Below are positions 4,101 to 38,690 of a stretch of DNA of 39,827 bases, piece after piece. The stretch lies in contig JAKEEX010000608.1 of the NCBI GenBank assembly GCA_022616315.1, forward strand, positions 1 through 39,827. Direction: 5' to 3'. How positions within the stretch are numbered: position 1 is the stretch's first letter; every line of letters begins with the position of its first letter. Source of the DNA: Myxococcaceae bacterium (GTDB lineage: Bacteria > Myxococcota > Myxococcia > Myxococcales > Myxococcaceae). Position numbers and translations under genes: made by a program. Below the pieces are notes generated by a model. It was not told where the DNA came from, did no database searches, and worked only from the letters and a program-made list of their open reading frames with translations.

Positions 4101-4312
4101 GCCCAGCCCGCGTAGTCGCCATCCATGCGGAAGAAGTGGATGCGGGCCATGTTCTCGGCCAGCGGCGGGGCCTCCGTGGGCAGGCCCGCGTCGGGCAGAC
4201 CCCCGTCGGGGTTGGAGCCGACAGGGTCTGTGCAGCCGGTGGCCAGGACCACAGTGGTGGCGAGAAGCACCCAGAGCGACGGGCCCCGGGGCAGTGGGGT
4301 TGATGGCATCAT
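1121..4312 (-). CDS. pulA: pullulanase-type alpha-1,6-glucosidase, lipoprotein (GH13)
   Basis: A debranching enzyme predicted to hydrolyse alpha-1,6 links in pullulan and starch dextrins at the cell surface. The 1063-residue form starts at the ATG at 4312 (a second ATG follows directly at 4309) and has a lipoprotein signal ending in LATGC with Cys27. The order seen is a CBM41-like module (about 55-160, with [18 protein letters not shown]), a linker domain, a CBM48-like module (about 304-400, [12 protein letters not shown]), then the GH13 barrel. All GH13 regions are present: DVVYNH, the nucleophile Asp647 in [10 protein letters not shown], the acid Glu684 in YGEGWN, and the transition-state Asp818 in SKHDNQT. 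The YGEGWN and GHH forms are typical of pullulanases. The gene diverges from the malKEFG operon. Residue +2 after Cys is Thr, so nothing marks it for inner-membrane retention. Confidence 0.93.
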
Positions 4313-4561
4313 GGTCGGGCCACTCCGTGGAGGTTGGAGGGACGGCGGGCGTCCTGCCGCATTGGAGACCTGTTCGGCGATAGACGTCCAGCGGCGGGCA
4401 GCTCCCCCTCCGGGGCGTGACACCATCCGGTTTCCTACACCGCGCGGGACGCGGGGCCAGTGCTAAGGTCGTCCCCGGATGTCGGGGCTCCCTCCGTCTA
4501 ACGCGCTGCAGTGGCTCGCCGTGTTCGCGCTGGTCTGCCTCCCCGTCTCCACGGAGACCCC
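4313..4561. promoter_or_regulatory. divergent control region between pullulanase and malKEFG
   Basis: This 249-nt gap separates two divergent maltodextrin units and must hold both promoters. A possible myxobacterial-type -10 (TAAGGT, 4464-4469) faces malK, but no convincing -35 lies 17 nt before it. I found no LacI/MalR-like palindrome. Exact promoters cannot be placed from sequence alone. Confidence 0.45.
4545..4558 (+). promoter_or_regulatory. Shine-Dalgarno inside an inverted repeat before malK
   Basis: GTCTCC-AC-GGAGAC is an inverted repeat whose right arm contains the GGAG (4553-4556) that serves the TTG start at 4562 with 5-nt spacing. Folded as GTCTC/GAGAC with a CACG loop, it would cover the ribosome-binding site. 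This site also decides the start choice for malK. Confidence 0.4.
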
Positions 4562-5650
<1,089 letters not shown>

Positions 5651-5672: not shown

Positions 5673-6893
5673 ATGCTCCGCTCCATTGCCAAGCTGTTGT
5701 GCCTCACCACCCTGTTCGCGCTGCCCGCGCTCGGGGCCGAGGCGAAGAAGCTCGTCGTCTGGCACGCCTACCGCGCCGAGGAGAAGGCCGCGTTCGAGAA
5801 GGTGGTGGCCGCGTTCAACCAGCAGAACGCCGCGAAGGGGCTCCAGGTCGAGTCGCTCGCCGTCCCCTATGACGCGTTCGCGGACAAGATCTCCGCCGCC
5901 GTCCCGCGCGGGAAGGGCCCGGACGTCTTCATCTACGCCCAGGACCGCCTCGGCGGCTGGATCGAGGCGGGCAACACCGTCGAGCCCATCGACTTCTTCC
6001 TCGACGACGCGACGAAGTCCCGCTTCCTGCCCACGACCATGGAGGCGATGGTCTACCGGGGCACCACCTACGGGCTGCCGCTGAACTACAAGGTGCTCGC
6101 GATGATCTTCAACAAGAAGCTCGTCGCGAAGCCGCCGAAGACCACCGGCGAGCTGGTGAAGGTGGCGAAGGGGCTCACCGACCCCGCGACCGGCCGCTTC
6201 GGGTTCGCCTACAACTACGGGGACTTCTACTACCACTCTGCGCTGCTCAACGGCTTCGGCGGACGGGTGTTCGAGAACGGCTCGACCCCGGTGCTGAACG
6301 CGCCGGAGAACGTGAAGAGCATCGAGCTGCTGATGAAGTGGGCGCGCAAGGACAACGTGCTCCCCAAGGAGCCCTCGGTGGCGGTCATCACCTCGCTGTT
6401 CAGCGCGGGCAAGGCCGCCATCGTCTTCTCCGGCCCCTGGTTCCTCGGTGAGATTGCCAAGGACATCGACTGGGGCCTCGCCCCGCTTCCGACCATCGAC
6501 GAGGCGGGCGGCAAGCCGATGCGCCCGTGGATCACCGTCGAGGGCGTCTACGTTGCCGCGCCGTCGAAGAACAAGGACGCCGCCTTCGAGTTCGCCAGGT
6601 ACCTGACCGACGTCCCCGCCGCGAAGGTGCTCGCGCTCGAGGGCCGGCAGAGCCCGGCGAACAAGAAGGTCTACGAGGACCCGAAGGTGGCCGCGGACCC
6701 GGTGCTGAAGGTCTTCCGCCAGCAGGTGGAGGTCGCGGTGCCGATGCCGAACGTGCCCGAGATGTCGATGATGTGGTCGCCGGCGACGAACGCGATGAAC
6801 GCCATCACCAAGGGCTCCACCAGCCCGAAGGCCGCGCTCGACAAGGCCCAGGAGGCGCTCGCGAAGGACGTCGCCAGCCTCCGGAAGAAGTAG
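5673..6893 (+). CDS. malE: maltose/maltodextrin-binding protein
   Basis: The periplasmic solute-binding component of the importer. The 406-residue protein has a Sec signal peptide (about 1-22, ending near LGAEA) and the extracellular solute-binding family 1 fold. The mature start KLVVWHAYRAEEKAAFEKVV, the region GPDVFIYAQDRLGGW and the later AAIVFSGPWFLGEI match the maltose-binding-protein subgroup. There is no lipobox, so it should be free in the periplasm. It lies 22 nt after malK, with AGGA eight bases before the ATG, and 7 nt before malF. Specificity for maltose versus longer dextrins cannot be read from sequence. Confidence 0.92.
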   Translation: MLRSIAKLLCLTTLFALPALGAEAKKLVVWHAYRAEEKAAFEKVVAAFNQQNAAKGLQVESLAVPYDAFADKISAAVPRGKGPDVFIYAQDRLGGWIEAGNTVEPIDFFLDDATKSRFLPTTMEAMVYRGTTYGLPLNYKVLAMIFNKKLVAKPPKTTGELVKVAKGLTDPATGRFGFAYNYGDFYYHSALLNGFGGRVFENGSTPVLNAPENVKSIELLMKWARKDNVLPKEPSVAVITSLFSAGKAAIVFSGPWFLGEIAKDIDWGLAPLPTIDEAGGKPMRPWITVEGVYVAAPSKNKDAAFEFARYLTDVPAAKVLALEGRQSPANKKVYEDPKVAADPVLKVFRQQVEVAVPMPNVPEMSMMWSPATNAMNAITKGSTSPKAALDKAQEALAKDVASLRKK

Positions 6894-6900
6894 GCCGGAG

Positions 6901-8928
6901 ATGACTGCCCCCGCGCTCCAGCAGCCCTCCTCGCAGCAGACGCCGCCCGGTGCAGAGGCACCGCGCGCGCTGCCTCCCCCTCCTCCCGCTCCTCCCGGGG
7001 CGCCCTCGCACCGGCTGCGGTTCGCGGTGGGCGTCCTCGTGGCGTCGCTCGTCGTCACGGGCCTCTCCTGGATGCTGCTCTCCCGCGCCCGCGCCGGGGC
7101 GGCGCTCGCCCTCGAGGAGCGGAAGGCGACCGTCGCCACCCTCGCGCTCGCGGACCTCGTCGTCCGCGCGGGCGGGAGCGGGGACGGGGTGCGGCAGGCG
7201 CTGGCGGCCTGGCAGCAGCAGGCCCCCGCTGGGGCGCAGGCGAAGGTCATCGCCTTCGACGGCCTCTCTCTCGAGGCCGCCACCGACGCGGGCCTCGGGG
7301 CCCCCCGGCGCCTGCAGCGGGACGAGAAGCCGCTCTACGACCAGGGGCAGCGGCTGCGCGCGGCGGTGGAGACCAACCGGGAGGAGTCGGTCGTCCGGAA
7401 GGAGGAGGTGGAGATCGCCGCGCAGCCCGACGGCAGCCTGCTGCTCGCGGCCCCGGTGGAGCTCGACGGCCAGGTGCGCGGGATGGTCGAGGTGCGCACC
7501 CCGAGGGTCGTGGTTGCACCCAGCCCCTCGTCCGGGAGCGCCGGACTGGCGCTGCTGCTCCCCCTCGTCGCCTTCTTTGCGCTCGCGCTCGTGCTGGGTG
7601 AGCGCCGCGTCGGGCTCGCGCTCGCCGCCACCTTTGCGCTCGCGCTCGGGGTCGGCTTCTACGCCTGGCACTCGGTCTCGGTGGTGGTCGAGGACCGCCG
7701 GGCGGCGTCGGAGGAGGTCGCCGACTCCGTGCGCACGCAGGCGGAGACAGCGCGGGAGCTCATCTCCCGGCTCGGACTGCCGGCAGACCCGCCGGTGGTG
7801 GCCTCCAGCTGGGACGCGGACGCGTTCCGCAAGCCGCGAGGGTGGCTCACCGCCGCCGGCCAGGTGGACGCGGGCGTGCTCGCGGGCCGGCTCGCGCAGG
7901 CGTCGGGGGACGTGGTCCGGGCGCTCGTGGCGGTCGCGCTCCTCGCGCTGCTGCTGCTGCAGGCCATCGGGCTCGGCTCGGTCGGGGCGCTCGGGCGCAC
8001 GCTCGTCACCCACCGGCGGGCGTACGCCTACGTCGCGCCGGCGCTGGTGGGGATGCTGGTGCTGGTGTTCTTCCCGTTCTTCTACGGCATCACGCTCAGC
8101 TTCACCGACTCGAACCTGCTCAACACCAGCCGGCCGCTCACCGAGCTGTGGGTGGGCCTCAAGAACTACGTCGACATCCTCAGCGACTTCGACCTCTCGA
8201 GGACCTCCGCCGACGGCGCGCGGGTGGCGAACTACACCAACTTCTACTGGACGCTCGGGGTCACCGTCGTGTGGACGGTCACCAACGTCGTCATCGGCGT
8301 CAGCGTCGGCCTGCTCCTCGCGCTGGTGCTCAACACCAGGGGCCTGGCGCTGCGGCCGGTGTACCGGGTGCTGCTCATCCTCCCCTGGGCGATGCCGAAC
8401 TACATCACCTCGCTCATCTGGAGGGGGATGTTCCACCAGCAATTCGGGGTCGTGAACCACGTGCTGGCCCTCTTCGGCGGCGAGCCGGTCTCCTGGTTCG
8501 AGACGCCGTTCACCTCGTTTCTCACGGCGCTCACCACCAACGGCTGGCTGTCCTTCCCGTTCATGATGGTGGTGTCGCTCGGCGCGCTGCAGTCCATCCC
8601 GGTGGAGCTCTACGAGGCGGCTCGGGTGGACGGCGCGAGCAGGTGGCAGCAGTTCCGCGCCATCACCCTGCCCTCGCTCAAGCCGGCGCTCGTCCCCGCC
8701 GTCATCCTCTCGGTGGTGTGGACGTTCAACCAGTTCAACGTCATCTACCTGGTGACGGCCGGCGAGCCGGGCGGGTCCACCGAGATCCTCATCACGCAGT
8801 CGTACAAGTTCGCGTTCGAGAAGTACCGCTACGGGTACGCGGCCGCGTACTCGACGGTCATCTTCGGCATCCTGCTCGTCTACGGCGTCTTCCAGAACCG
8901 CGTCACCAAGGCCACGGAGGCCGTCTGA
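6901..8928 (+). CDS. malF: maltodextrin ABC permease MalF with a large N-terminal sensor-like extension
   Basis: The first inner-membrane subunit of the importer. The permease part begins near residue 372 and has the cytoplasmic EAA loop (ELYEAARVDGASRWQQF, from Glu569) that docks on MalK. At 675 residues it is well over the roughly 300-residue CUT1 permease and longer than E. coli MalF (514). The extra 370 residues comprise a Pro-rich cytoplasmic start, a membrane segment (about 41-60), a soluble section (62-212) ending in a Cache-like APVELDGQVRGMVEV, two membrane segments (about 215-258), a second soluble section (260-338) and another segment (340-360). The reading frame is unbroken and the composition matches the neighbours, so this is a natural fusion rather than a frameshift. 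Its stop overlaps the malG start (TGATG). Confidence 0.9.
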   Translation: MTAPALQQPSSQQTPPGAEAPRALPPPPPAPPGAPSHRLRFAVGVLVASLVVTGLSWMLLSRARAGAALALEERKATVATLALADLVVRAGGSGDGVRQALAAWQQQAPAGAQAKVIAFDGLSLEAATDAGLGAPRRLQRDEKPLYDQGQRLRAAVETNREESVVRKEEVEIAAQPDGSLLLAAPVELDGQVRGMVEVRTPRVVVAPSPSSGSAGLALLLPLVAFFALALVLGERRVGLALAATFALALGVGFYAWHSVSVVVEDRRAASEEVADSVRTQAETARELISRLGLPADPPVVASSWDADAFRKPRGWLTAAGQVDAGVLAGRLAQASGDVVRALVAVALLALLLLQAIGLGSVGALGRTLVTHRRAYAYVAPALVGMLVLVFFPFFYGITLSFTDSNLLNTSRPLTELWVGLKNYVDILSDFDLSRTSADGARVANYTNFYWTLGVTVVWTVTNVVIGVSVGLLLALVLNTRGLALRPVYRVLLILPWAMPNYITSLIWRGMFHQQFGVVNHVLALFGGEPVSWFETPFTSFLTALTTNGWLSFPFMMVVSLGALQSIPVELYEAARVDGASRWQQFRAITLPSLKPALVPAVILSVVWTFNQFNVIYLVTAGEPGGSTEILITQSYKFAFEKYRYGYAAAYSTVIFGILLVYGVFQNRVTKATEAV

Positions 8929-9809
8929 TGTCCGCTGCTCCCGGCGAACGCATCCCCCACTGGCCGCTCCACGTGCTCCTCGTGGTCGCGGTGGTGCTCA
9001 CGATCTACCCCATCCTCTGGGTCGTCACGATCGCGTTCTCGGGCAACCAGAGCCTGGCCATCTCGACCCTCCCGGAGGACCCGACGTTCTGGGACCGGCT
9101 GCGCGCCATCACCCCGTGGCCGCAGACCTTCTCGGTCTCGAACTTCACCTCGGTGATGACCGAGCAGCCGTTCGGCAGGTGGATCCTCAACAGCGCCATC
9201 GTGTCGCTGGCGACCACCGTGGTGGGCGTGTTCCTCGCCTGCACCGCGGGCTACGCGTTCTCGCGCTTCAACTTCCCCGGCCGGCGTACGGGGATGATGG
9301 CGTTCCTGGTGTCCCAGATGTTCCCGGGCACGCTGATGCTCATCCCGCTCTACATCATCCTCGTGCAGTGGCTGGGGCTTGGCAGCTCGCACATCGGCCT
9401 GGTGCTCGTCTACGCGACCACCGCGATTCCCTTCTGCGTCTGGATGTTGAAGGGCTACTTCGACACCATCCCGAAGGACCTCGAGGAGGCCGCGCTGCTC
9501 GACGGCGCCTCCTCCGGGCAGATCTTCTGGCGCATCATCCTGCCGCTCGCCAGGCCCGCGGTGGCCGTGACGGCGCTCTTCTCGTTCATGACCGGCTGGA
9601 ACGAGTTCATCCTCGCCGCCACCTTCATGGACCAGGAGCTGATGTACACCGCGCCGGTGGGGCTGCGCTTCTTCGTCGGCGGGTACTCGCAGCAGTGGGG
9701 CTACTTCGCTGCGGGGTCCATCATCGTCTCCATTCCCGTGGTCGCGCTCTTCCTCTTCCTCCAGAAGTACCTCGTGTCGGGCCTGACCGCGGGGAGCGTG
9801 AAGGGGTAG
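8928..9809 (+). CDS. malG: maltodextrin ABC permease MalG
   Basis: The second permease subunit of the importer. The 293-residue protein has about six membrane segments, starting with HVLLVVAVVLTIYPILWVV, and the EAA loop DLEEAALLDGASSGQIFWRI (from Asp184) for contact with MalK. It ends in VSGLTAGSVKG, the typical C-terminus of MalG proteins. Its ATG shares one base with the malF stop, so translation is probably coupled. The gene converges on the alpha-amylase gene with only 15 nt between stop codons, including a GGGGCGCCCC palindrome (9812-9821). Confidence 0.93.
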   Translation: MSAAPGERIPHWPLHVLLVVAVVLTIYPILWVVTIAFSGNQSLAISTLPEDPTFWDRLRAITPWPQTFSVSNFTSVMTEQPFGRWILNSAIVSLATTVVGVFLACTAGYAFSRFNFPGRRTGMMAFLVSQMFPGTLMLIPLYIILVQWLGLGSSHIGLVLVYATTAIPFCVWMLKGYFDTIPKDLEEAALLDGASSGQIFWRIILPLARPAVAVTALFSFMTGWNEFILAATFMDQELMYTAPVGLRFFVGGYSQQWGYFAAGSIIVSIPVVALFLFLQKYLVSGLTAGSVKG

Positions 9810-9824: not shown

Positions 9825-12434
9825 CTACGGGATGGCGATCGGCGCGAGGTCGTCCATGATCTTCGGATCGGTCGTCGCGCCACCGCCCATCGCCCACTGC
9901 CCACCCTCGGGGGTGAGCTCGCGGAACGCGGCGCCGATCCCGTCGAAGTCCCACGTCGCGACGTACACCTTCACGCCCGACCAGGAGGCCAGGCCGAGCG
10001 CCGTGCGGTCGTAGCTGAAGGTGACCGTCCTGGACGCCTCGTCCGCGGTCATCGTCGGGTTCCAGGCTGCGGTCGCGCCGTACGTCTCCGCCGTCGCGCC
10101 AGTGGAGGTCGTCGTCTTCACCGACTCCCAGCCGAACGCGAAGTGCGAGTACGTCCAGGCGAAGCCATCCGGCGTGGTCGCGCTCAGCTTCGGCATCACG
10201 TTCGTCCCCGCGCTTCCCGGGACGGAGAGGTAGATGTTGAAGGCCACGTGGTCGAACCCGTTGCTCGGGTTCCACGACCTGGACCAGTCGGCCATCTGGA
10301 TCTTGAGGTTCATCGTGGTCGCTTCGACCTCGAGCGTGACCCCGTCGATGTCCATCTGGTCCCGGAACGTGGCGTCCTTCGGGTACGTGTAGGTCCCGAC
10401 GGGGCCGGTGTCGTCGCCCACCGGATCGTCGAACGTGTAGATGTCTCCCTGGAACACGGTGTCCGAGGTGAAGCGGTAGCGGGGCGAGGCCGCCTGGGCG
10501 GAGCGCGCGTAGAAGCTGACCGTGTGCGCGTTGAGGCCCTTCGGGAACGCGGACACCGGGAGGACCACGCTCCAGCTCCCGTCCGCAGCGACGGGGATGG
10601 AGGTGGCGCGGTCGACGTAGTCGTCCACCACCATCCGGAGCGAGGTGCTCGCCGGCGTGACCGTGCCCGAGAGGGTGACGTCGTCGCGGAAGGTCTGCCC
10701 TTCGATGGGGGTGGTCACCGAGATGGTCGCGGTCGGCGCCGGCGGGGCCTGCGTCGGCCCCGACGGACGGGCGATCAGCACCGCACGCGCGGGCAGCTCC
10801 ATCCGCAGGCGGCCACCCTCACCCACCACCGGCGTGGGGGGCTCCTTCTCCGAGTGGAGGACCTCCAGCACGGTGCCCGCGGGGAGCTTCGTGTCGAGGT
10901 CGTTCACCAGCACCTTCTCCCCCGCGGTGTTCATCAGCACCAGCACACTCTGGCCCTCGAGGGTCCGGCGGAACGCGAACGCCCCGGCGCCGGCGTGGGT
11001 GTCGTAGAGCACCTCGAGCTCGCCGCGGCGGAGCGCCGGGGAGGCCTTGCGGAGCGCGGCCAGCTTCTGGACCTTCTGGTAGAAGGTGCTCTCGAGGTAC
11101 TGGTCGATCCCGATGTTCTCGAAGCCGCCCCGGAACATCGCAGCGCGGTTCTCGGTGAGGAGCTGCTCGGTCCCGTAATAGACGACCGGGATGCCGGGCG
11201 CCGTGAAGAGGAACGCGAGCGCCTGCGCGAGCCCGTCACGGGTGGAGACCGAGAGGAAGCGCCGCACGTCGTGGTTGTCGATGAAGCTCGGCATCACGTG
11301 CGGGTTCGGGAAGCGCGCGCGGTCCATCGACCGCTGCAGCCGGTAGGTGAGCAGCGCGGTGGGCCTGCTCGCAGCGAACACCCGGTCGATCTCCCCGTAG
11401 AGCGGGAAGTTCAACACCGCCGGCAGCTCCGGCGCCTCGGCCGTGCCGAGGAAGCTCGAGACCTTCCTCTCTGCGGTGTCGGTGAAGGGCTCGGACACCT
11501 CGTACACCTCGCCGAACGCGAAGAACCGGTCGCGCCCCGTCGCCGCTGCGACCGCGTGCATCCCGGGCGCCTCGGCGTCGGTGGAGTGGAAGAAGTCGTT
11601 CCAGAACGCGTGCGGCGCGAACTTCGCGGTGTCGACGCGGAAGGCGTCCACGCCCACCTCGCGGATCCAGTAGCCGTACGAGTCGCGCAGCGCCCTGCGG
11701 ACCACCGGGTTCTCGGTGTTGAGGTCGTCCAGGTCGGACAGCTGCCAGCTCACCTCCTGCTCCGCGCTCGAGTAGTCGGAGATGGCGGGCGTCCAGTGGT
11801 AGATGGCCGCGTCCCGCTGCGCCGGGTCGGTGGCGTCGTTCTGATCGAACGGAGCCTGCGTCGGCCTGTCGGTGGGCACCGCGCCGGTGTTGCTGACGAT
11901 GCCCGCACCGACGTTGGCCGGGTCGTAGGCCGAGTACTGGAAGAAGTTCCCCATGTGGTTGGGGACCACGTCCTGGATGAGGTACATCCCGCGCCGGTGG
12001 AGCGCGTCGCTCAGCGCCTTGTAGGTGTCGAGCGTGCCGAAGTGCTCGTCCACCTGCTTCAGGTCCCGTGCCCAGTAGCCGTGGTAGCCGCCGTACTGCT
12101 GGAGCGGGTCCCACCACATGTTCGCCACGGGCGGGGTGATCCACACCGCGGTCGCGCCGAGGCCCTGGATGTAGTCCAGCCGGTCGATGATTCCCTGCAG
12201 ATCGCCGCCGGAGAAGTGCGCGGGGCTGGAGGGGTCGAACTCGCCGCGCCCCTGGTCGTCGTTCGACGGGTCACCGTTCGCGAACCGGTCCGTCATCACG
12301 AAGTAGATGACCTGGTCCTCCCACGCCGGTGATGGGACGTGGAGGAGCAACTCCTCCTTCTTTGGGCTGCAGGAGAGCGTGAGCGCGCCCAGAAGGAGCG
12401 GCAGGACCTGACGGGAACGGTGCGAAGCGCTCAT
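9825..12434 (-). CDS. alpha-amylase lipoprotein (GH13) with Ig-like and glucodextranase-C-like domains
   Basis: A predicted surface enzyme that cuts alpha-1,4-glucans. The 869-residue protein starts at the ATG at 12434 and has a lipoprotein signal ending LTLSC (Cys22). The GH13 barrel spans about 30-480, with DVVPNH, the nucleophile Asp268 in AFRVDTAKF, the acid Glu309 in FGEVYE and Asp389 in IDNHDVRRF. A beta-sandwich of Ig type follows (about 565-655, ISVTTPIEGQTF). The C-terminal 200 residues resemble the glucodextranase C-terminal module (DDPVGDDTGPVGTYTYP) that is also found in the proteins at 12451 and 18182. The start codon lies 16 nt after the stop of the upstream gene, so the two are co-transcribed. 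It is more likely an endo-amylase or neopullulanase-type enzyme than a glucosidase. Confidence 0.9.
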   Translation of the reverse strand: MSASHRSRQVLPLLLGALTLSCSPKKEELLLHVPSPAWEDQVIYFVMTDRFANGDPSNDDQGRGEFDPSSPAHFSGGDLQGIIDRLDYIQGLGATAVWITPPVANMWWDPLQQYGGYHGYWARDLKQVDEHFGTLDTYKALSDALHRRGMYLIQDVVPNHMGNFFQYSAYDPANVGAGIVSNTGAVPTDRPTQAPFDQNDATDPAQRDAAIYHWTPAISDYSSAEQEVSWQLSDLDDLNTENPVVRRALRDSYGYWIREVGVDAFRVDTAKFAPHAFWNDFFHSTDAEAPGMHAVAAATGRDRFFAFGEVYEVSEPFTDTAERKVSSFLGTAEAPELPAVLNFPLYGEIDRVFAASRPTALLTYRLQRSMDRARFPNPHVMPSFIDNHDVRRFLSVSTRDGLAQALAFLFTAPGIPVVYYGTEQLLTENRAAMFRGGFENIGIDQYLESTFYQKVQKLAALRKASPALRRGELEVLYDTHAGAGAFAFRRTLEGQSVLVLMNTAGEKVLVNDLDTKLPAGTVLEVLHSEKEPPTPVVGEGGRLRMELPARAVLIARPSGPTQAPPAPTATISVTTPIEGQTFRDDVTLSGTVTPASTSLRMVVDDYVDRATSIPVAADGSWSVVLPVSAFPKGLNAHTVSFYARSAQAASPRYRFTSDTVFQGDIYTFDDPVGDDTGPVGTYTYPKDATFRDQMDIDGVTLEVEATTMNLKIQMADWSRSWNPSNGFDHVAFNIYLSVPGSAGTNVMPKLSATTPDGFAWTYSHFAFGWESVKTTTSTGATAETYGATAAWNPTMTADEASRTVTFSYDRTALGLASWSGVKVYVATWDFDGIGAAFRELTPEGGQWAMGGGATTDPKIMDDLAPIAIP

Positions 12435-12450
12435 GGTGAGCCTCGAGGAA

Positions 12451-13797
12451 TCAAGGGGTCGGCGGGGACGAGGGGCGCTGCCCGGCCTGCGCGAAGTGCA
12501 CCCGGTGGCCCGGCCGGATCTCACCCTTCCCGTCGGTGATGTTCGCGAGGACGAAGCCGTTCGAGACGTCCGTCACCACGACCCGGCCGAGCTTGCGCCC
12601 CTCACCGTCCACCACGGTGCCGAGCTGCCACTGGCGCGGCCCTCCCTTCGGGGTGGGGATGACCGCGGTGTCTCCGGTGATGCTGGCGATCTCGAGCGAC
12701 AGGCTCTCTCCTGGCGCAGTCGGCGGCGAGGGCACCGGGGTGGGGGCGCTGGGCACGGCGATGCGGCTCGGGTCCAGGGGCCCGCCTGCCACGGGGCCTG
12801 CGGGAGCGGGGGCCGACGGCGGCGTGCCCGCAGCCTGGCCGCTGCTCGGGGCCGGGGCCGGGGCGGGAGCGGGGGCCGGCGGAGGCGTGCCCGCAGCCTG
12901 GCCAGTGCTCGGGGCCGGGGCGGACGAGGCGCCGGCGAGCGCATCCGCGCTTGCACCGCCGGGGTACACCATCGGCACGATCGCGGCCTTGTCTGGGCCG
13001 AAGCTGCCGAGAACGTCCGCCTGCGAGACGCCCGGCGGAAGGATGACGTCGATGACGTGCGGGTTGTTGCTGCCGAGATTGCCACCGCCGAAGGCACGCT
13101 CCTCCGGCACGCCGTAGACCGGGAGCGTGAGCATGTTCGACTCGCGCATGCCCCGGAGCCAATCGACGGCCGAGAAGGAGGCGTCCCACGCGGCGCCGCT
13201 CACCATCACCGAATAGCCCCAGTCCTTCCGGGGAGGCCCCCCCAGCTGCGCGAGGGGGACGCGCACGGTGAGAGTCTGCCCGGAGCTTCTCACCGGGCCC
13301 GGGGTGATGACGTGCCTGGCCATCTCGGCGTCCACGGTGGCGAGCTCGCTGCGCGCCGCTCCGGGACGGGGAACGATTGCGATTGCGCGCTCCCACCCGG
13401 ACCCGGGTTGAAAGGCGACGCGCCTGCCAGGGAGCGCCCGGGTGAAGCCCGCTCCCGGCGTGGTGTCGAGGTAGATGTCCACGTTCTGCGTGTAGATGCC
13501 GTTGTCGAGGATGAGGTCCCCGCGGTCTCCGCGCTGCGCGACGATGTTCCGGCGCACGTTCGCGCCAAGGGTGACCTCGAAGACGGCGTCCTGCCCCTCG
13601 ACCCGCACCGAGAACCTCCGCAGGTCGAAGTCACCCGGCCGGTACTCGGCCCCCGTCGGGTAGAGGTAGCTGCCCGGGCCGCGGTCGTCGTCACGCGGGT
13701 CCTCCAGGGTCACCACCGCGGGTGCCGGTGCAGCAAGGGCCGGGGCCGCCGCCGTGAGGAGCGCAGCCAGACAGGAGCCGAGAGTGGACCGCCGCAT
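12451..13797 (-). CDS. secreted glucodextranase-C-like protein with Pro/Ala repeat linker
   Basis: An exported 448-residue protein with no catalytic motif that I can see. A signal peptide (about 1-23, ending ALAAPA) is followed by a domain like the glucodextranase C-terminal module: DPRDDDRGPGSYLYPTGAEY near the start and NNPHVIDVILPPG and PMVYPG near the end (about 28-290). Next is a Pro/Ala-rich linker with a 21-residue repeat (APSTGQAAGTPP / APSSGQAAGTPP), then a C-terminal small beta domain (about 375-440). GGAGG sits 9 nt before the ATG. The upstream gene's terminator ends just before it, so this gene may have its own promoter or be read through. It is probably a carbohydrate-binding or surface partner of the amylase next door; that role is inferred. 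Confidence 0.8.
   Translation of the reverse strand: MRRSTLGSCLAALLTAAAPALAAPAPAVVTLEDPRDDDRGPGSYLYPTGAEYRPGDFDLRRFSVRVEGQDAVFEVTLGANVRRNIVAQRGDRGDLILDNGIYTQNVDIYLDTTPGAGFTRALPGRRVAFQPGSGWERAIAIVPRPGAARSELATVDAEMARHVITPGPVRSSGQTLTVRVPLAQLGGPPRKDWGYSVMVSGAAWDASFSAVDWLRGMRESNMLTLPVYGVPEERAFGGGNLGSNNPHVIDVILPPGVSQADVLGSFGPDKAAIVPMVYPGGASADALAGASSAPAPSTGQAAGTPPPAPAPAPAPAPSSGQAAGTPPSAPAPAGPVAGGPLDPSRIAVPSAPTPVPSPPTAPGESLSLEIASITGDTAVIPTPKGGPRQWQLGTVVDGEGRKLGRVVVTDVSNGFVLANITDGKGEIRPGHRVHFAQAGQRPSSPPTP
12800..12920 (-). repeat. 63-bp-period tandem repeat within a coding linker
   Basis: Two 58-bp copies (12800-12857 and 12863-12920), offset by 63 bp, differ at four positions. The period equals 21 codons, so changes in copy number keep the frame. 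It encodes the Pro/Ala linker of the protein at 12451-13797. Confidence 0.8.
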
Positions 13798-13820
13798 GTG
13801 ACATGGCCTCCGAAAAATGA

Positions 13821-13853
13821 GGGGCGAGGAAGTCGCATGGACCCCCTCGCCCC
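13821..13853 (-). terminator. intrinsic terminator after the lipoprotein operon
   Basis: On the minus strand a 9-bp perfect stem (GGGGCGAGG / CCTCGCCCC, 15-nt loop) is followed after three bases by TTTTT. It begins 27 nt past the stop codon at 13881. This is the best Rho-independent terminator in the window. It splits the minus-strand array into an outer-membrane operon and a downstream amylase pair. Confidence 0.8.
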
Positions 13854-13880
13854 GGATTCAACTTGAAGCGCTACCCGTGA

Positions 13881-14801
13881 CTACGGGATGGCGACGTAGG
13901 TGTTCTGGTTGCTGTCGAGGACGGCGACGGTCTTCTCGACGAAGTCACCGGTCGCGCCCTTCACGAATGCCTTCACTCCGTTGAGCTCGCCCGCGGAACC
14001 GTCCTTGTAGTCAACGCCGCCGACCACCCAGATGAACTCGGCGTTGGCGCCGCTGGCCAGCTTCAGGCGGCGAATTGCGTTCAAGCTCAGGGTGTAGGTG
14101 TAGATGCCGTCACTCGCGGTCGCATCGCCATGGGTGCCGTCGTCGTAGGTCTCCTCGGGCGACCAGTCGGAGAAGGTGCCCTTCACCTGCGGCTTGGTGC
14201 CCGCGGGCAGCTCGAACGTGCCGCCCAGGTTGTTGGTGTCAAGGGTCAGACGCAGGTCATTAGTCCCATCGGGGTCGAGCATAAGACCAGCGGCGGTGAC
14301 CGGCGTGGTCGAGCCGGCAGGGATCGTGACGGAGCCATCCGAGCCCTTCCAGATCCAGCAGCCACCCGAGTTGCCGCAGTTCGGGCCCGCCGGGATCTGC
14401 GCGCCGTACTTGATCTCGAGAGCTTCGGTCTGTTTCGGGAGGAACGCCGTGATGCCGAACTTGTTGTCACCAGCGACCGCGCCCTTCGGCTCGTGACCGC
14501 CCTTGTCCCAGGGACCGTCGTCATACAGCGGAGCGTAGGGGCCATTGCCGCCAGCCCAGTCTGCAGAGTACGTCAAGAGGCGGGTGGCCTTGTCGTAGGT
14601 GAAGCTGCCCTTCCACTCGAGCCCCTCGTTCACGTAGAAGCCCGGCCGGCCACTCGCGTCGATCGTGAAGCTGAGCGCCACGGTGTTCTCGGGCTGGGGG
14701 AAGCCCTCCTCCTCGGGCGGGGGCTCGATGGGCGTGCCGCAGCCCGCGATGAGCAGGCCGGCGGCGGTGATGAAACCAAGGATCTTCTTCGTCTCGTTCA
14801 T
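13881..14801 (-). CDS. starch-binding-like lipoprotein, last gene of the porin operon
   Basis: A 306-residue predicted lipoprotein: the signal ends LIAGC with Cys21 and +2 Gly, consistent with the outer membrane. It starts at the ATG at 14801 with a strong GGAGGAG site. The body is beta-rich. Near residue 218 it has YDDGTHGDATASDGIYTYTL, a motif found in carbohydrate-binding modules of amylases and in SusE/SusF-like proteins. The same motif recurs in the next gene upstream. No catalytic residues are recognisable. The gene is 25 nt downstream of the 464-residue lipoprotein gene and ends just before an intrinsic terminator. Function inferred: capture of glucan chains at the surface. The protein family is not one I can name with certainty. 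Confidence 0.78.
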   Translation of the reverse strand: MNETKKILGFITAAGLLIAGCGTPIEPPPEEEGFPQPENTVALSFTIDASGRPGFYVNEGLEWKGSFTYDKATRLLTYSADWAGGNGPYAPLYDDGPWDKGGHEPKGAVAGDNKFGITAFLPKQTEALEIKYGAQIPAGPNCGNSGGCWIWKGSDGSVTIPAGSTTPVTAAGLMLDPDGTNDLRLTLDTNNLGGTFELPAGTKPQVKGTFSDWSPEETYDDGTHGDATASDGIYTYTLSLNAIRRLKLASGANAEFIWVVGGVDYKDGSAGELNGVKAFVKGATGDFVEKTVAVLDSNQNTYVAIP

Positions 14802-14826
14802 TTGCACTTCTCCTCCGTCGTCGTGC

Positions 14827-16221
14827 CTACTCGGCCACGAACTCCTCACAGCTCACCGTCAGCGGCGCCACCCAGTCCGGGGTAACGAAGCCGTCCGGCA
14901 CACAGTCGTTGTCCACGTCGGCAGGGACCTCGCGGGCCTCGGGCTGGCCGTCGCCGTTGAGATCCTCGTCCCACTCAAGCGTTCCGCCTGACTTGGGATT
15001 CAGGTTGTAGAGGTCCTTGTTGGTCGCCTCGTCTCCGAAATTGTCGAAGCGGGCGACGTAGCCATCGCCGTTGACGTCTTGGACCTCGAAGATGCGCTGG
15101 TTGCCGGGCCACTCCTCTGTGCCCGTCCACAGGTCACCCTTGTTGCCCCATGTGTACTTGTACCCGATGCGCACGCCACGCGGCAGATCGAACGCAACCG
15201 ACCAGATGTTGTCGCCCGCGACCTGATCGCCGTTCGTCCCGTCGTCGTACATGGACACCTGATTCGGGGTCCAGCCGCCGCGGTTGCCGAGCATCGCGTC
15301 CACAAGGATGTCCTGCACCGGCGAGGTCTTGTGGATTCCACCGACGAAGAACATCTGTCGGCCGGGCTCGTTCCTCACCCAGCGGAAGCGGTCGATCTGG
15401 CCACAGGCACCGTTGAGCTTGCCGGCGTTGAAGTTCACCGTGAACACGGTGCGCACCAGGTCGGGGTCCGGCGGTGCCGACAGCTCTGTGCCCTGCAGCG
15501 CCTCGAGGAAGAGCACGTCGAACGCCTCGGTGGTCTGGTTGAGGACCCCGTTGCCGTCGTAGTCGTAGTTCGCCCGGACGACCCAGTCGGGGTTGAGCGC
15601 GCTCGTCTCCACCACGTATTGCCCGGTGGCTTCATCCTCCGAGACGACCGGCGACTGGAACACCTGCGTGGACGTGGTCACGTCGAGGTTCGCGCGCGCG
15701 ATGATCCGCTCCATGATCCGGACCAGCTCGGCGGACGGTCCCGGGACGGCGTAGCGCGGCGCGAGCTTCTTGCCGGTGATGCAGAGCAGATCGTCGGAGA
15801 GCTTCCCGAGGGTCTTGCCGGTCGGCCCGAGCAGCCCCTCGACGAGCTTCACCGTCGCGGTGCTCCTCGCGTCGAGGCTCACCCCCTCGACAGTCCCCTC
15901 GTTCGGAAGGCGAGGCATGAACGCCTCGTACATGACCTCCCCCTGGATGGCGCGCAGGCGCATGCCGGCGTAGGCACCCGCGATGAAGTTCACCTCGTAC
16001 TGGCCGTCGGCCACCTTCGAGGCGAACGGGGTGATGGTCTTCCCCGCGGAGTCCACGCCGACGAAGGTGGGATCGGGGAGCGAGATGGTCCCCTTGACGG
16101 TGCTCACCGGCTGCGTGTGCGGAGGACCGCCGTAGAGGTTGAACGCACCCTCGAGCCCGCAGCCGGGCCCGAGCAGAGACACTGCGGCGAGGGCGAGCGC
16201 CCTCTGGAGCTTGGATCGCAT
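14827..16221 (-). CDS. putative starch-binding lipoprotein with Ca-binding-like repeats
   Basis: A 464-residue predicted lipoprotein: signal 1-20, Cys21 in LGPGC, +2 Gly. The N-terminal half is beta-rich and not recognised. From about residue 324 it has YDDGTNGDQVAGDNIWSVAF, like the neighbouring lipoprotein and like starch-binding modules, followed by aromatic-rich sequence (YKYTWGNKGDLWTGTEEWPG) suited to sugar stacking. The C-terminus has several Asp/Asn-rich loops (DVNGDGYVA, DLNGDGQPE, DVDNDCVPD) resembling EF-hand/dockerin-type calcium sites. Its ATG shares one base with the stop of the barrel gene (TGATG), and GGAGG lies 10 nt upstream. The tight coupling suggests it works with the barrel, as Sus lipoproteins do; this is inferred. 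Confidence 0.78.
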   Translation of the reverse strand: MRSKLQRALALAAVSLLGPGCGLEGAFNLYGGPPHTQPVSTVKGTISLPDPTFVGVDSAGKTITPFASKVADGQYEVNFIAGAYAGMRLRAIQGEVMYEAFMPRLPNEGTVEGVSLDARSTATVKLVEGLLGPTGKTLGKLSDDLLCITGKKLAPRYAVPGPSAELVRIMERIIARANLDVTTSTQVFQSPVVSEDEATGQYVVETSALNPDWVVRANYDYDGNGVLNQTTEAFDVLFLEALQGTELSAPPDPDLVRTVFTVNFNAGKLNGACGQIDRFRWVRNEPGRQMFFVGGIHKTSPVQDILVDAMLGNRGGWTPNQVSMYDDGTNGDQVAGDNIWSVAFDLPRGVRIGYKYTWGNKGDLWTGTEEWPGNQRIFEVQDVNGDGYVARFDNFGDEATNKDLYNLNPKSGGTLEWDEDLNGDGQPEAREVPADVDNDCVPDGFVTPDWVAPLTVSCEEFVAE

Positions 16222-18170
16222 CAAAACGCAACCTCCACGAACGCCTTCGAGCGGACGACCCGCCATTTCTGGTCGAAGACGCCCGGGATCGAGCGGAACT
16301 GGTCCTTGTGGAAGTACTCGAGGACGTAGCCGATGTTGGCGCCCCCGAACGTGTACGAGAGCCCGGCGCGGCCGATGTGCCGGCGGGTGGCGTAGTCGAA
16401 GAAGCCCTGCGACTGCGAGCCGCCGCGGTTCTTCTCGTCCCAGTAGCTCCACTCGTAGCCGAGCGTGCCCTTCAGCTCGTTGTTGAACTGGTAGCCGAGC
16501 TGGGCGAACGCCATCATGCTGTCGCCCCGGTAGGTGTCGTCGAGGTTGTCCTGTTTGCGGTAGTCCACGTCGCGGACGTACTTCAGCTTCACCTTCGCGG
16601 TCAGCCCCTGCACCCCGGGCACCAGCGTGTCGGCGCCGAGCACGGCGATCTGGGTGTTCCGGTTCTGGAACTCCTTGTAGACCGAGCGCGGGTCACGGCC
16701 GCGGTCGTGCACGTTCGCGTAGTCGCTGTTGGCGGTGTACGAGACCGGGTCGGTGAACCCGTCCGTGTAGAGGAAGTCGGGGTACTCGAGCTCGACGTTC
16801 CGGTCCTGCTCGTTGGTGTTGTACGTGAGGTAGGTGAGCTCGCCGGTGAGCTTGAGAGCGCCGCTCACGTACTCGACGACGCCGGTGCCGCCGTGCCAGC
16901 CGATGATGGACTCGTACCAGGGCTCGTCGAAGTCCACGAACTCGTTGGCGATGTTCAGCGTCGGCAGCTGCCCGCCGGTGACGAAGCCGCCCCCGATGAT
17001 GCCGTCGGTGAGGAGCACGTCTGCCTCGCGCCGGGCGCCGAAGTTCGCGTTGAAGTCCTCGCCGATGTTGAAGTACTCGGCCTTGAACGACAGGCCGTTC
17101 TCGAAGGGGTCGAACAGCTCGACGAGCACCTTGCCCGCGACGTCACCCACCGGCACTGACTTGCCCAGTGAGTCGAACCGGTACACCAGCGGCGAGAACC
17201 CCTGGTCGTTCTGGACCGCGTTCGTCGCGTAGTCGGTGTTGATGTGGCTCCATCCCTGCGCGACCAAAGCGCGGACGCTGAGCGCCTCGAAGTCGGCGGG
17301 GGCGTAGGTCGCCTCGAGGGTGCCGTTGACGGCGCGGAAGCGGGGGGCCCACTTGACCGCGTGGTCGGCACCCCGGTCGCCCGAGGGCTCACCGGTGAGG
17401 TCGGGGTCGAACCGGTCCGCCTCGACGTCCTGGAGGTAGGCGCCGATAACGTTCAGGGTGAGGTCCGGGTGCGGGGAATAGCCGAGCTTCAGGGCGTAGG
17501 CCCAGTCCCCACCCCAGAAGCTGGACAGCGGGTCGGAGTGCGCCAGACCGGTGTTCCAGCGCGGCCCGATGAACAGCTTCGGCAGCGCGATCGCCGCGGT
17601 GTGGTAGGTGAAAGTGCCCAGCGCCCCCTCGACGAACGCGCCATAGCCGTTGGTGCGGTCGATGTAGCGCGACTTGCCGATGGTCCACTCGTTGAACATC
17701 CCGAGGTCGCTGGAGCCGATGTGGATCCAGCGCACCGTGGGGATGGGAGCGGCGATGCGCGCCCAGGCCGAGCGGAGCTTGATGTACTGGGCGTGGTTCA
17801 TCCCCTGGCTCTCGCCCGAGGTGTTCCCGGTGAAGGGGGTGTTGGAGGGGTAGTCCCAGCGGGTGTCGCCGTTCTCCCACCAGTCCTGCCAGAGCGCGCC
17901 CCAGCGGCTCTGGATGGACGCGCCGGCGGAGACCTTGTCGCTCACCCGGCCCTTGATGCCGATCTCGAGCTCGGTGCAGACGCCGTTGTGGCCGCCGATG
18001 TTGTCGGGCCAGAACGGGTTGGAGAGCGAGAGGCAGCCGGTGGTGGCGTCGTTCTGGTACAGGTACTTGGTGTAGATCTTCCCCGTCAGCTCGAGGTTGC
18101 TGGCCTGCGCGAGTGCGAGGCCCGGCGCGGCGAGCAGGGCGAGTGCGGCGGCGGTCGTGATGGGTTTCAT
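16221..18170 (-). CDS. outer-membrane beta-barrel protein, probable maltodextrin porin
   Basis: A 649-residue exported protein with a clear Sec signal (MKPITTAAALALLAAPGLALAQA) and a long series of alternating amphipathic beta strands with aromatic girdles. The last residue is Phe (SKAFVEVAF), as required for BAM-mediated barrel insertion. No plug domain, TonB box or LamB signature is visible. The best reading is a large porin-like barrel that admits dextrins, since the operon encodes surface amylase and two binding lipoproteins. A GTG at 18185 overlapping the previous stop by 4 nt (GTGA) is an alternative start adding five residues; I prefer the ATG at 18170 for its typical signal peptide. 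The barrel assignment is firm; the substrate is inferred. Confidence 0.82.
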   Translation of the reverse strand: MKPITTAAALALLAAPGLALAQASNLELTGKIYTKYLYQNDATTGCLSLSNPFWPDNIGGHNGVCTELEIGIKGRVSDKVSAGASIQSRWGALWQDWWENGDTRWDYPSNTPFTGNTSGESQGMNHAQYIKLRSAWARIAAPIPTVRWIHIGSSDLGMFNEWTIGKSRYIDRTNGYGAFVEGALGTFTYHTAAIALPKLFIGPRWNTGLAHSDPLSSFWGGDWAYALKLGYSPHPDLTLNVIGAYLQDVEADRFDPDLTGEPSGDRGADHAVKWAPRFRAVNGTLEATYAPADFEALSVRALVAQGWSHINTDYATNAVQNDQGFSPLVYRFDSLGKSVPVGDVAGKVLVELFDPFENGLSFKAEYFNIGEDFNANFGARREADVLLTDGIIGGGFVTGGQLPTLNIANEFVDFDEPWYESIIGWHGGTGVVEYVSGALKLTGELTYLTYNTNEQDRNVELEYPDFLYTDGFTDPVSYTANSDYANVHDRGRDPRSVYKEFQNRNTQIAVLGADTLVPGVQGLTAKVKLKYVRDVDYRKQDNLDDTYRGDSMMAFAQLGYQFNNELKGTLGYEWSYWDEKNRGGSQSQGFFDYATRRHIGRAGLSYTFGGANIGYVLEYFHKDQFRSIPGVFDQKWRVVRSKAFVEVAF

Positions 18171-18181
18171 CGCTTGAGTGC

Positions 18182-19069
18182 TCACTCGCCGGCGTAGACC
18201 ATCGGCAGCTCGACGAGGTCCGCCTGGGTCGGCGCCTCGAGGCCCTTCTTGAAGGCGCCGAGCACCTTCTTCTGCAGCTCGACCTCCTCCACCGCGCCCT
18301 TCGCCTTGCCGGCGAGGATGTCGATGGCGTGCGGGTCGTTGTCGTAGTCGCTGCCGCCGCCGAAGCGGTGCTGGCCCTCGAACTCGTTCACCTTTCGGGT
18401 GAGCAGGTCCGTCTTGTCCGGGAAGCCCTCGTTCGACTGGCTCACCACCTGGTAGCCCCAGGTCCCCTGCGGCAGCCCGCCGAGCTGGTCCTTGCCGACG
18501 ACCGCGATGAGCGTCCGGCCCTGAGCGCGCGTGATCTTGGGGACGATGATGTCCTTCTTCAGGTCAGCCGCCTTGATGCCGATCTCGCTGTTCACCCGGG
18601 TCTGCCCCTGCGGCGAGAAGACGACGACCTTCTCCCACGCGTTCGCCGGGGCGAAGCGCACGTTCAGCCCGGGGAGCCCCTTGGTCTGGCCGCTGCCGTC
18701 CTTGTGGTCCATGTCGATGAACACGAACGCCATCTGCACCGAGAAGCCGTTGCCGCCCCAGGCCTTGCTGTCCCAGGGGTCCTCGATGCGCGACTTCACC
18801 GTCACGCGGAACTCCACCTCATCGCCCACGGGCACCACCTGGAAGCGGGTGATGTCGAAGCTGCCGGGCTTGTAGACGGCGTCGGTCGGGTAGATGTAGG
18901 TGCCCGGGCCGAAGTCGTCCCCGGCGGGGTCGTTCAGGTCCACCGGGCCGGTGGAGGCGGTGGCCTTGGCACCGGCGGTGGGAGCGGCGGACGGCGCGCC
19001 CTCGGCGGCGATCGAGGTGGCGCCCGCGAGCGGCAAGAGCAGCGGAGCGAGGGCAAGGAATCGCTTCAT
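18182..19069 (-). CDS. secreted glucodextranase-C-like protein
   Basis: A 295-residue exported protein: signal peptide 1-23, a short Ala/Thr/Pro-rich spacer, then one domain over the rest. The domain begins NDPAGDDFGPGTYIYPTDAVY, closely matching the start of the modules in the amylase at 9825 and the protein at 12451. Near the end it has NDPHAIDIL and PMVYAGE, again shared with the 12451 protein. The family is the C-terminal binding module of glucodextranase, thought to bind sugars or cell surface; catalytic residues are absent. TGGAG lies 8 nt before the ATG. The gene is 19 nt after the GH13 gene and overlaps or abuts the barrel gene, so it sits inside the operon. The exact role is unknown. 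Confidence 0.82.
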   Translation of the reverse strand: MKRFLALAPLLLPLAGATSIAAEGAPSAAPTAGAKATASTGPVDLNDPAGDDFGPGTYIYPTDAVYKPGSFDITRFQVVPVGDEVEFRVTVKSRIEDPWDSKAWGGNGFSVQMAFVFIDMDHKDGSGQTKGLPGLNVRFAPANAWEKVVVFSPQGQTRVNSEIGIKAADLKKDIIVPKITRAQGRTLIAVVGKDQLGGLPQGTWGYQVVSQSNEGFPDKTDLLTRKVNEFEGQHRFGGGSDYDNDPHAIDILAGKAKGAVEEVELQKKVLGAFKKGLEAPTQADLVELPMVYAGE

Positions 19070-19088: not shown

Positions 19089-20774
19089 TCAGTCGAGGCG
19101 GAGGAAGGAGAAGGACCGGGCACCGAGCCCGGCAAACGAGAGCGCGCCGTCCTTCGAGGTGGGCGGGATCTCGAGCCCCTCGTGCATGAGGACCGTGGGG
19201 GTGCCGGAGGTGGCGACGGTGAACGCGCCGACCGCCTGGGCAGAGAGGTTGGCGACGAAGAGGACCCGCTCGCCCCCCTCGAGCTCGCGGAGCATCGCGA
19301 ACACCCCGTCGCCACCGCCGGTGATGGTGGGGCGGGTGCTCGCACCGCTCGAGAGCGCAGGGTGGGCGTGCCGGAGCGCAATCAGCGCGCGGTAGTGGTT
19401 CCAGAGCGAACCCGGGTCGGCCTGCTGGGACGACACGTCCGTGCCCGAGGCCTCCGGGGCGGTGTCACCGAACTTCACGCGGTACCAGCTCAACGCGCTG
19501 GAGAAGCCGTAGCTCGGGAACTCCGGGGACCAGAGCATCGGGGTGCGCTTGTCCTCGTCGCGCTGGTTCGGGCCGCCCACCATGCCGAGCTCCTCCCCGT
19601 AGTAGAGGAACGGGGTGCCGGGCTGGGCGAACAGCAGTGCCGCCGCGAGCCGCGCCTTCTCGGGGCTGGACCCAAGCTGACGCATCACCCGGACATGGTC
19701 GTGGTTGCGCAGGAACGGCGCCTCGAAGCCGCGATCCGGCACCACCGTCGAGGCGACGTAGTTCGCCTGGTGGATGCTCGCGCGGGTGCCGTCGTTGACC
19801 GACTTCAGGATGGCGTCGGCGATCTCGAAGGAGAACGCGAGCTGGTACTCGTTCCCCTCGCCGTAGTAGGTGCCGACGTTGGTGCTCGACGTCCACGCCT
19901 CGGCGACGAGCAGCGCCTGCGGGTACTCCTGGTGGAGTGCGTGGCGGAGGCGCTGGACGAGCTCGTGCGTCTCGGGCTGGTCGGCGAGGTTCGCTTCGTT
20001 CTCGACCAGGTAGCGCGCGGCGTCCACCCGGAAGCCGTCCACGCCGCGGGCGAGCCAGAACTTCATCACGTCGAGCAGCTCGGCCTCGACCGCCGGGTTC
20101 TTCCAGTTCAGGTCCGGCATCCCGCTAAAGAAGACGCCGTAGTAGTAGCCGCCCGCGCCGGCGTGCCAGACGTCCCCGCCGCCGGTCGGGTTCACGTAGC
20201 CGGTCGGCTTGGTGGGCCGCCACACGTAGTGGTCCCGCCAGGGAGAGGTGCTGTCCTGCCGCGCGGAGACGAACCACGGGTGCTGGCTCGAGGTGTGGTT
20301 GAGCACGAGGTCGAGGATGACCTTCATGCCGCGCGCGTGGGCCGCGGCGGTCAGCGCGTCGAAGTCCGCGAGGGTGCCGTACTCGGGGTTCACCCCGCGG
20401 TAGTCGGTGACGTCGTAGCCGTGGTAGCTGGGCGACGGGTGGATGGGCATCAGCCAGAGCGCATCCACGCCGAGGTCGGTGGTGGTCGCCGGGTTCCCGT
20501 CGTTGAGCACGTCGAGCTTCGCGGTCAGCCCGGCGAGGTCGCCGTTCCCGTCGCCGTCCGAGTCGTGGAAGCTGCGGACGAAGACCTCGTAGAAGACGTC
20601 ATCGCGCCACCAGCCCGACGTGTTCGGGGTGATGACCTCGGGGTCGGGCCCGGCGTCCGGAGCTCCGCCTCCCGGAGGGGTGGTGCAGCCTGCCGCAAGG
20701 AGAATCCCCCCAGCCAGCGCGGCGACCGTCGCTGGCCGAACCTTCCAGGTACGAAGGTGTTTCCGAAGAGTCAT
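19089..20774 (-). CDS. GH13 alpha-amylase-family lipoprotein
   Basis: A 561-residue predicted lipoprotein (signal ending LAAGC, Cys30) that is mostly a GH13 barrel: YEVFVRSFHDSDGDGNGDL at the start (a calcium-binding loop pattern), DLVLNHTS, the nucleophile Asp251 in GFRVDAARYL, the acid Glu292 in VAEAWTS and Asp359 in LRNHDHVRV. A short C-terminal beta domain ends the protein. The barrel resembles oligosaccharide-acting alpha-amylases more than starch-branching enzymes. It is the first gene of the minus-strand outer-membrane operon. Two ATGs are possible (20789 and 20774); neither has a good Shine-Dalgarno. I chose 20774 because the signal peptide then starts MTLRKHLR. Exact specificity is unresolved. 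Confidence 0.88.
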   Translation of the reverse strand: MTLRKHLRTWKVRPATVAALAGGILLAAGCTTPPGGGAPDAGPDPEVITPNTSGWWRDDVFYEVFVRSFHDSDGDGNGDLAGLTAKLDVLNDGNPATTTDLGVDALWLMPIHPSPSYHGYDVTDYRGVNPEYGTLADFDALTAAAHARGMKVILDLVLNHTSSQHPWFVSARQDSTSPWRDHYVWRPTKPTGYVNPTGGGDVWHAGAGGYYYGVFFSGMPDLNWKNPAVEAELLDVMKFWLARGVDGFRVDAARYLVENEANLADQPETHELVQRLRHALHQEYPQALLVAEAWTSSTNVGTYYGEGNEYQLAFSFEIADAILKSVNDGTRASIHQANYVASTVVPDRGFEAPFLRNHDHVRVMRQLGSSPEKARLAAALLFAQPGTPFLYYGEELGMVGGPNQRDEDKRTPMLWSPEFPSYGFSSALSWYRVKFGDTAPEASGTDVSSQQADPGSLWNHYRALIALRHAHPALSSGASTRPTITGGGDGVFAMLRELEGGERVLFVANLSAQAVGAFTVATSGTPTVLMHEGLEIPPTSKDGALSFAGLGARSFSFLRLD

Positions 20775-24629: not shown

Positions 24630-24830
24630 CGCTGGCCTCCTCCCGGACCACGTCCGCCGTGCCCCCGTTTACAGACGAGGGCCAGGAAACCTCTTCGGAT
24701 TTACAAGGTCAAGCCGGTCACCTCCTGACATTGACAGGCTGTGACATCCACAACGGCACAGAATCTCTGGGGGAATTGCCATTTACGGCGTGATGCGTAA
24801 CTTGCCTCCACCGAATTTGCGGAGGTGCAG
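24630..24830. promoter_or_regulatory. divergent control region between the fatty-acyl regulator and aceB
   Basis: This region holds a cluster of TGAC/GTCA half-sites at 24706-24747. GTCA-N5-TGAC forms a palindrome (24717-24729), and TGACAT occurs at 24726 and again at 24742, 16 bp apart. TTGACA (24731-24736) could be a -35 for aceB, but no good -10 follows at 17 nt. Closer to aceB, CCTCC (24805-24809) can pair with the GGAGG Shine-Dalgarno (24821-24825). The half-site cluster is the best candidate operator for the divergent regulator. Confidence 0.45.

Positions 24831-26447
<1,617 letters not shown>

Positions 26448-35438: not shown

Positions 35439-38690
<3,252 letters not shown>

Follow-up and report, generated by a model that had tools for sequence, protein, structure and literature searches.

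A Myxococcaceae genome carries three copies of the glucodextranase C-terminal module (PF09985) within a single locus, two of them on proteins without any enzyme, and we asked what such modules might do beside amylase genes and a maltodextrin ABC transporter. The window analysed here, the whole 39,827-nucleotide stretch of DNA, encodes the two stand-alone copies, A and B, and a GH13 amylase, C, that ends in the third (Table 1). Compared by hmmscan with the 228-position PF09985 profile, whose curated cut-off is 22 bits, all three lie far above threshold, as the single family proposed by an earlier note on this DNA predicts: A scores 174 bits (E 5e-51, profile positions 3–217), B 127 bits (E 8e-37, 1–224) and C 90 bits (E 2.2e-25, 1–204, with the last 24 positions missing). 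The coordinates given there for the three genes, all on the minus strand, are correct, and the N.PH.ID and PMVY motifs ascribed to the free proteins are present in both, their full modules aligning end to end with these ends included (hhalign E 2e-52). The DP..DD.GP..Y.YP motif, said to occur in all three, is exact in A and B but one residue longer in C (DPVGDDTGPVGTYTYP); likewise, the description of one fused and two free exported copies holds, except that B is no bare module, since it continues into a linker and a C-terminal domain. No other PF09985 match occurs in the 5.54-Mb genome, and the clustering of its only three copies is thus not a matter of chance.

By both sequence and fold this is the module found at the C terminus of Arthrobacter globiformis glucodextranase (1ug9/1ulv); A matches the 1ug9 sequence at E 1e-18 and B at E 5e-7. 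In glucodextranase the module ends a GH15 enzyme, whereas in the window A and B are exported as proteins in their own right and C joins it to a GH13 enzyme: profile searches found a GH15 catalytic domain on none of the three, and no catalytic domain of any kind on A or B.

Table 1. Features of the PF09985 locus, with positions in the window.
Feature	Positions	Strand	Evidence
Pullulanase (PUD, Pullulanase_N2, CBM48)	1121..4426	-	Pullul_strch_C 8.9e-56
MalK ATPase	4511..5650	+	ABC_tran, OB_MalK
MalE binding protein	5673..6893	+	SBP_bac_1 3.7e-34
MalF permease	6901..8928	+	BPD_transp_1 1.1e-23
MalG permease	8925..9809	+	BPD_transp_1 5e-22
C: lipoprotein GH13 amylase with C-terminal PF09985 module	9825..12434	-	Alpha-amylase 1.4e-54, PF09985 2.2e-25, lipobox LTLSC
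B: PF09985 module, Pro/Ala linker and unnamed C-terminal domain, 448 aa, Sec signal peptide	12451..13797	-	PF09985 127 bits
Hairpin with U-tract, candidate partial terminator between lip2 and B	13821..13853	-	14-pair stem, TCATTTTTCG tail
lip2: lipoprotein, choice-of-anchor X domain	13881..14801	-	NF041940 33 bits, lipobox IAGC
lip1: lipoprotein, DDGTNGD..AGD motif, choice-of-anchor X	14827..16221	-	NF041940 28 bits
POR: outer-membrane beta-barrel, C-terminal F	16221..18170 (18185 with GTG)	-	AF2 22 strands
A: stand-alone PF09985 protein, 295 aa, Sec signal peptide	18182..19069	-	PF09985 174 bits, 1ug9 matches by sequence and fold
GH13 lipoprotein amylase, first of row	19089..20774	-	Alpha-amylase 4.4e-95, lipobox LAAGC

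The exported genes form a minus-strand row, read in the order GH13 amylase, A, POR, lip1, lip2, B and C, with 19 bp between the first amylase and A, 25 bp between lip1 and lip2, and 16 bp between B and C. POR begins at the stop of A or at most 15 bp away (a GTG start at 18185 would overlap that stop), the ATG of lip1 overlaps the stop of POR (junction TGATG), and C starts at the ATG at 12434, or at 12524 if an upstream GTG is used, its PF09985 module occupying 9840–10442. The sole sizeable gap of the row, 83 bp between lip2 and B, holds the hairpin at 13821–13853; terminator-like sites are no more frequent in the region than in shuffled sequence, that is, at chance level, so this hairpin is only a lead. 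It lies just upstream of the ribosome site of B and may lower expression of B and C. From the other side, the plus-strand genes MalK, MalE, MalF and MalG converge on C, from which MalG is 15 bp distant, with the pullulanase gene beyond them.

Much of this arrangement recurs in other phyla. A species-level scan, in which 84,980 species were represented by a single genome each, gave 272 stretches with relatives of A, of which the best 80 were kept; these come from Myxococcota (Archangium, Corallococcus, Hyalangium and Anaeromyxobacter), Acidobacteriota (Acanthopleuribacter, Thermoanaerobaculia and Holophagae), Pseudomonadota and one Bdellovibrionota assembly. Gene order follows two repeated layouts, MalK-E-F-G-A-POR-B and the window's own type, A-POR-lip1-(lip2)-B, and they are kept in loci of Myxococcota, Acidobacteriota and Pseudomonadota. 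Among the 76 of these best loci with enough sequence, 72, across several phyla, have POR directly after A, and 36 have MalG immediately before it. The A protein itself has 37 residues invariant across 55 proteins.

Within the phylum the same association is seen genome by genome. PF09985 is carried by 18 of 60 relatives and by 67 of the phylum's 174 genomes; POR is present in 59 of the 174, every one of which has PF09985 (59/59), and is missing from all 107 genomes that lack PF09985. The Fisher value for this co-occurrence, 4e-38, is descriptive only and overstates significance, because the genomes are related rather than independent. In these genomes 54 POR matches start less than 370 bp from a same-strand match to A and one more at 2.1 kb, the remainder lying on contigs without a match to A. 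B follows POR closely in distribution: 50 of the 59 POR genomes have it, the other nine containing no recognisable B, and it occurs in none of the eight genomes that have PF09985 without POR. A still follows MalG in two genomes (G114, locus L137; G116, locus L138) where POR and B are both missing. Several deeper relatives have A and POR but lack a Mal transporter in the roughly 10 kb around them, and genome G008 (locus L026) has A with neither POR nor a Mal transporter nearby, so that maltodextrin may not be the substrate in every case. In Archangium-type loci the interval from POR to B proved to contain no hidden genes, POR itself being longer there.

What, then, is the barrel beside A? The AF2 model of POR (mean pLDDT 76.5) has 22 strands and no plug, and its last residue is Phe, as in outer-membrane proteins. 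No Pfam or NCBIfam family scored above cut-off for this barrel family, of which 50 members were aligned, PDB sequences gave no match, and the fold search returned generic barrels only, with a query-normalised TM-score no higher than 0.41 among the 50 matches listed. A TonB-dependent transporter of the SusC kind was rejected, given that the 50 members contain no plug family and the model begins with strands. Nor does POR appear to be a distant LamB: hhalign gives that relationship a probability of 0.5%, PF02264 does not match, and the 22 modelled strands compare with 18 in the LamB barrel.

The strongest hint that POR carries maltodextrins comes instead from loci where LamB occupies its place. 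Four of the 76 A loci have no POR next to A, two of them in Anaeromyxobacter, and in four Anaeromyxobacter-type genomes and one other (G075) LamB follows A in the slot of POR, at gaps of 155–201 bp. The Anaeromyxobacter protein matches PF02264 at E 3e-100 and maltoporin 1mpr at E 9e-54, and in locus L102 LamB was recognised as a 52% match in a tblastn frame. B is absent from all five of these genomes, and a phylum-wide LamB search found no match in the window's own genome. In the tree, Anaeromyxobacter A proteins group among Acidobacteriota A proteins from POR loci, a pattern which suggests that LamB replaced POR. Two smaller features of these loci may be recorded: in G075 the A gene before LamB (L139:8233-8797) is split over two frames, through either a true break or an assembly error, and in three Anaeromyxobacter-type loci the usual place of B, after LamB, is taken by a protein that matches the pullulanase PUD part (L102:8896-9246, L120:12294-12689 and L139:10418-10792).

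The divergence of the three modules, from which the earlier note had argued against recent duplication, is confirmed by the tree, in which A, B and C form three separate groups (supports 92/88, 100/97 and 100/100), with A and B spread across phyla. As A and B span the same phyla, they must have parted long ago; C joins 1ug9 through long branches only, and that join is not trustworthy. In a fold search with the AF2 model of A (mean pLDDT 84.7), glucodextranase 1ug9 (E 1.6e-13) was the sole solved relative with E below 0.001, CBM9 being included among the sub-threshold matches. Residues 51–60 and 211–250 are the best conserved of A, yet have the lowest pLDDT within the module (62–81); invariant Asp, Glu, Asn and Arg abound in both stretches, which do not differ between loci of POR and LamB type. 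These features make it more likely that they hold a ligand or metal ion missing from the model than that they form a contact with POR.

Where in the cell A and B act can be approached through their export signals, judged here by a simple rule and by eye. Both window proteins have type-I signal peptides and no lipobox, and profile searches found no SLH or other surface-anchor domain in either. By the same rule 87 of 98 A proteins are type I, a few having a lipobox; many Archangium-type loci, unlike the window, encode a B with a lipobox. The surface scaffold suggested by the earlier note is poorly matched by such mixed soluble and lipid-anchored forms, which fit a protein working beside the outer membrane. 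Since conservation ties A and B to an outer-membrane barrel and a maltodextrin ABC transporter, a periplasmic or channel-associated position fits better, and the lipobox of some relatives means that A or B may be attached to the outer membrane, on either face.

These observations favour, with moderate confidence on our part, a reading of the whole locus as a maltodextrin or starch importer in which POR stands in for LamB and A and B are exported glucan-handling partners. The amylases and pullulanase would cut alpha-glucan outside the cell or at its envelope, and the fragments would then enter by way of POR, a large outer-membrane barrel doing the job of LamB, to be passed to MalE and on to the MalFGK ABC transporter. 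A and B probably help starch fragments into the cell, and would do so by holding glucan or handing it over at the step between channel and periplasm. In such a scheme A would be the general partner, kept beside MalG with POR, with LamB or with no channel at all, and B, found only in POR genomes, a partner specific to POR; in C, a lipoprotein amylase, the module would act as a tail for binding. A common role of the three proteins in alpha-glucan handling, akin to the shared binding set suggested by the earlier note, is probable. We advance more tentatively the idea that POR represents a new class of outer-membrane alpha-glucan channel, wide, plug-less and unrelated to LamB or SusC, with PF09985 partners of its own in the periplasm, A general and B specific to it.

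Several other readings deserve consideration. A and B might instead be structural partners or plugs of POR, acting in its assembly or gating and binding no sugar: A and POR almost always adjoin, B tracks POR, the barrel is modelled as wide and plug-less, and anchoring that alternates between soluble and lipobox forms is what a membrane-held protein should show. We consider this unlikely, as A persists alongside LamB and where a genome has no POR at all, and its residues 211–250 are the same whichever channel lies alongside, which speaks against contact with POR. The chances appear slimmer for a surface-exposed starch-binding set comprising A, B, C, lip1 and lip2, comparable to SusE and SusF of Bacteroides; the lipoboxes of C, lip1, lip2 and the first amylase, and those of A or B in some relatives, would suit it, but the window's A and B have neither lipobox nor surface-anchor domain, most A proteins are type I, and no SusC or SusD relative was found in the row. 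We regard as highly improbable a reading of the free modules as leftover or spare glycosidase tails that lack any fixed role. PF09985 was indeed first known as an enzyme tail, and in haloarchaea the module exists both fused to GH97 and separately beside a sugar ABC transporter; debris would decay, however, whereas A retains its invariant residues and a fixed gene position across phyla.

The importer reading invites comparison with known systems. In the E. coli maltose system, malK-lamB-malM accompanies malEFG, and a small periplasmic protein is thus encoded beside the channel. The window likewise combines an ABC transporter, an outer-membrane channel and exported proteins, and some relatives of the locus use LamB itself, but POR has no detectable kinship with LamB, and neither A nor B matches MalM (PF07148) at E up to 10. 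The Bacteroides Sus system places a lipoprotein amylase and starch-binding lipoproteins beside a large outer-membrane barrel; lipoprotein amylases and weakly CBM20-like lipoproteins also lie near a large barrel here, although POR has no TonB plug, no SusD was found in the row and import across the inner membrane falls to an ABC transporter. A separate PF09985-type protein of 356 aa, named 'glucodextranase DOMON-like domain-containing protein' by NCBI, is known from the haloarchaeon Natrinema versiforme, while other haloarchaea carry the GH97-fused module; unlike the bacteria considered here, these organisms have no outer membrane and no POR. The Natrinema gene lies on a plasmid (L146, 7608-8678) beside an alpha-glucosidase, a GH97 enzyme and a sugar ABC transporter.

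PF09985 is a known family whose stand-alone members already carry names in databases; novelty appears to lie in the A-POR-B cassette conserved in maltodextrin operons and in the replacement of POR by LamB. Name searches of the glucodextranase literature, in which subscription journals were thinly covered, found nothing on stand-alone PF09985 proteins or the POR barrel, and nothing helpful came from searching for maltodextrin porins of myxobacteria, for MalM or for starch uptake by Corallococcus. For a domain whose name reflects only its place as an enzyme tail, the locus suggests a role open to testing, and POR points to an uncharacterised family of outer-membrane barrels in the place of LamB. 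The locus is also a second instance in which a maltodextrin channel has a conserved exported protein encoded next to it, and may help to explain such accessory proteins.

The remaining exported proteins of the row add further detail. The C-terminal domain of B, about 75 residues (roughly 365–440) after the Pro/Ala-rich linker, is conserved in 10 aligned proteins, none of which has a Pfam family there; it is found in window-type relatives, while the B of Archangium-type loci is shorter and seemingly without it. lip1 and lip2 share the motif DDGT.GD..A.D(G/N)I(Y/W) (choice-of-anchor X). Assignment of either to CBM20 was not accepted, its CBM_20 matches being sub-threshold only; the two are possibly new starch-binding lipoproteins. 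Other-strand reading frames within the range of A, B and C look like frame shadows in high-GC DNA, as do long minus-strand frames over two genes further along the window. These genes, both on the plus strand, encode malate synthase (24825-26447) and the large chain of carbamoyl-phosphate synthase (35439-38690).
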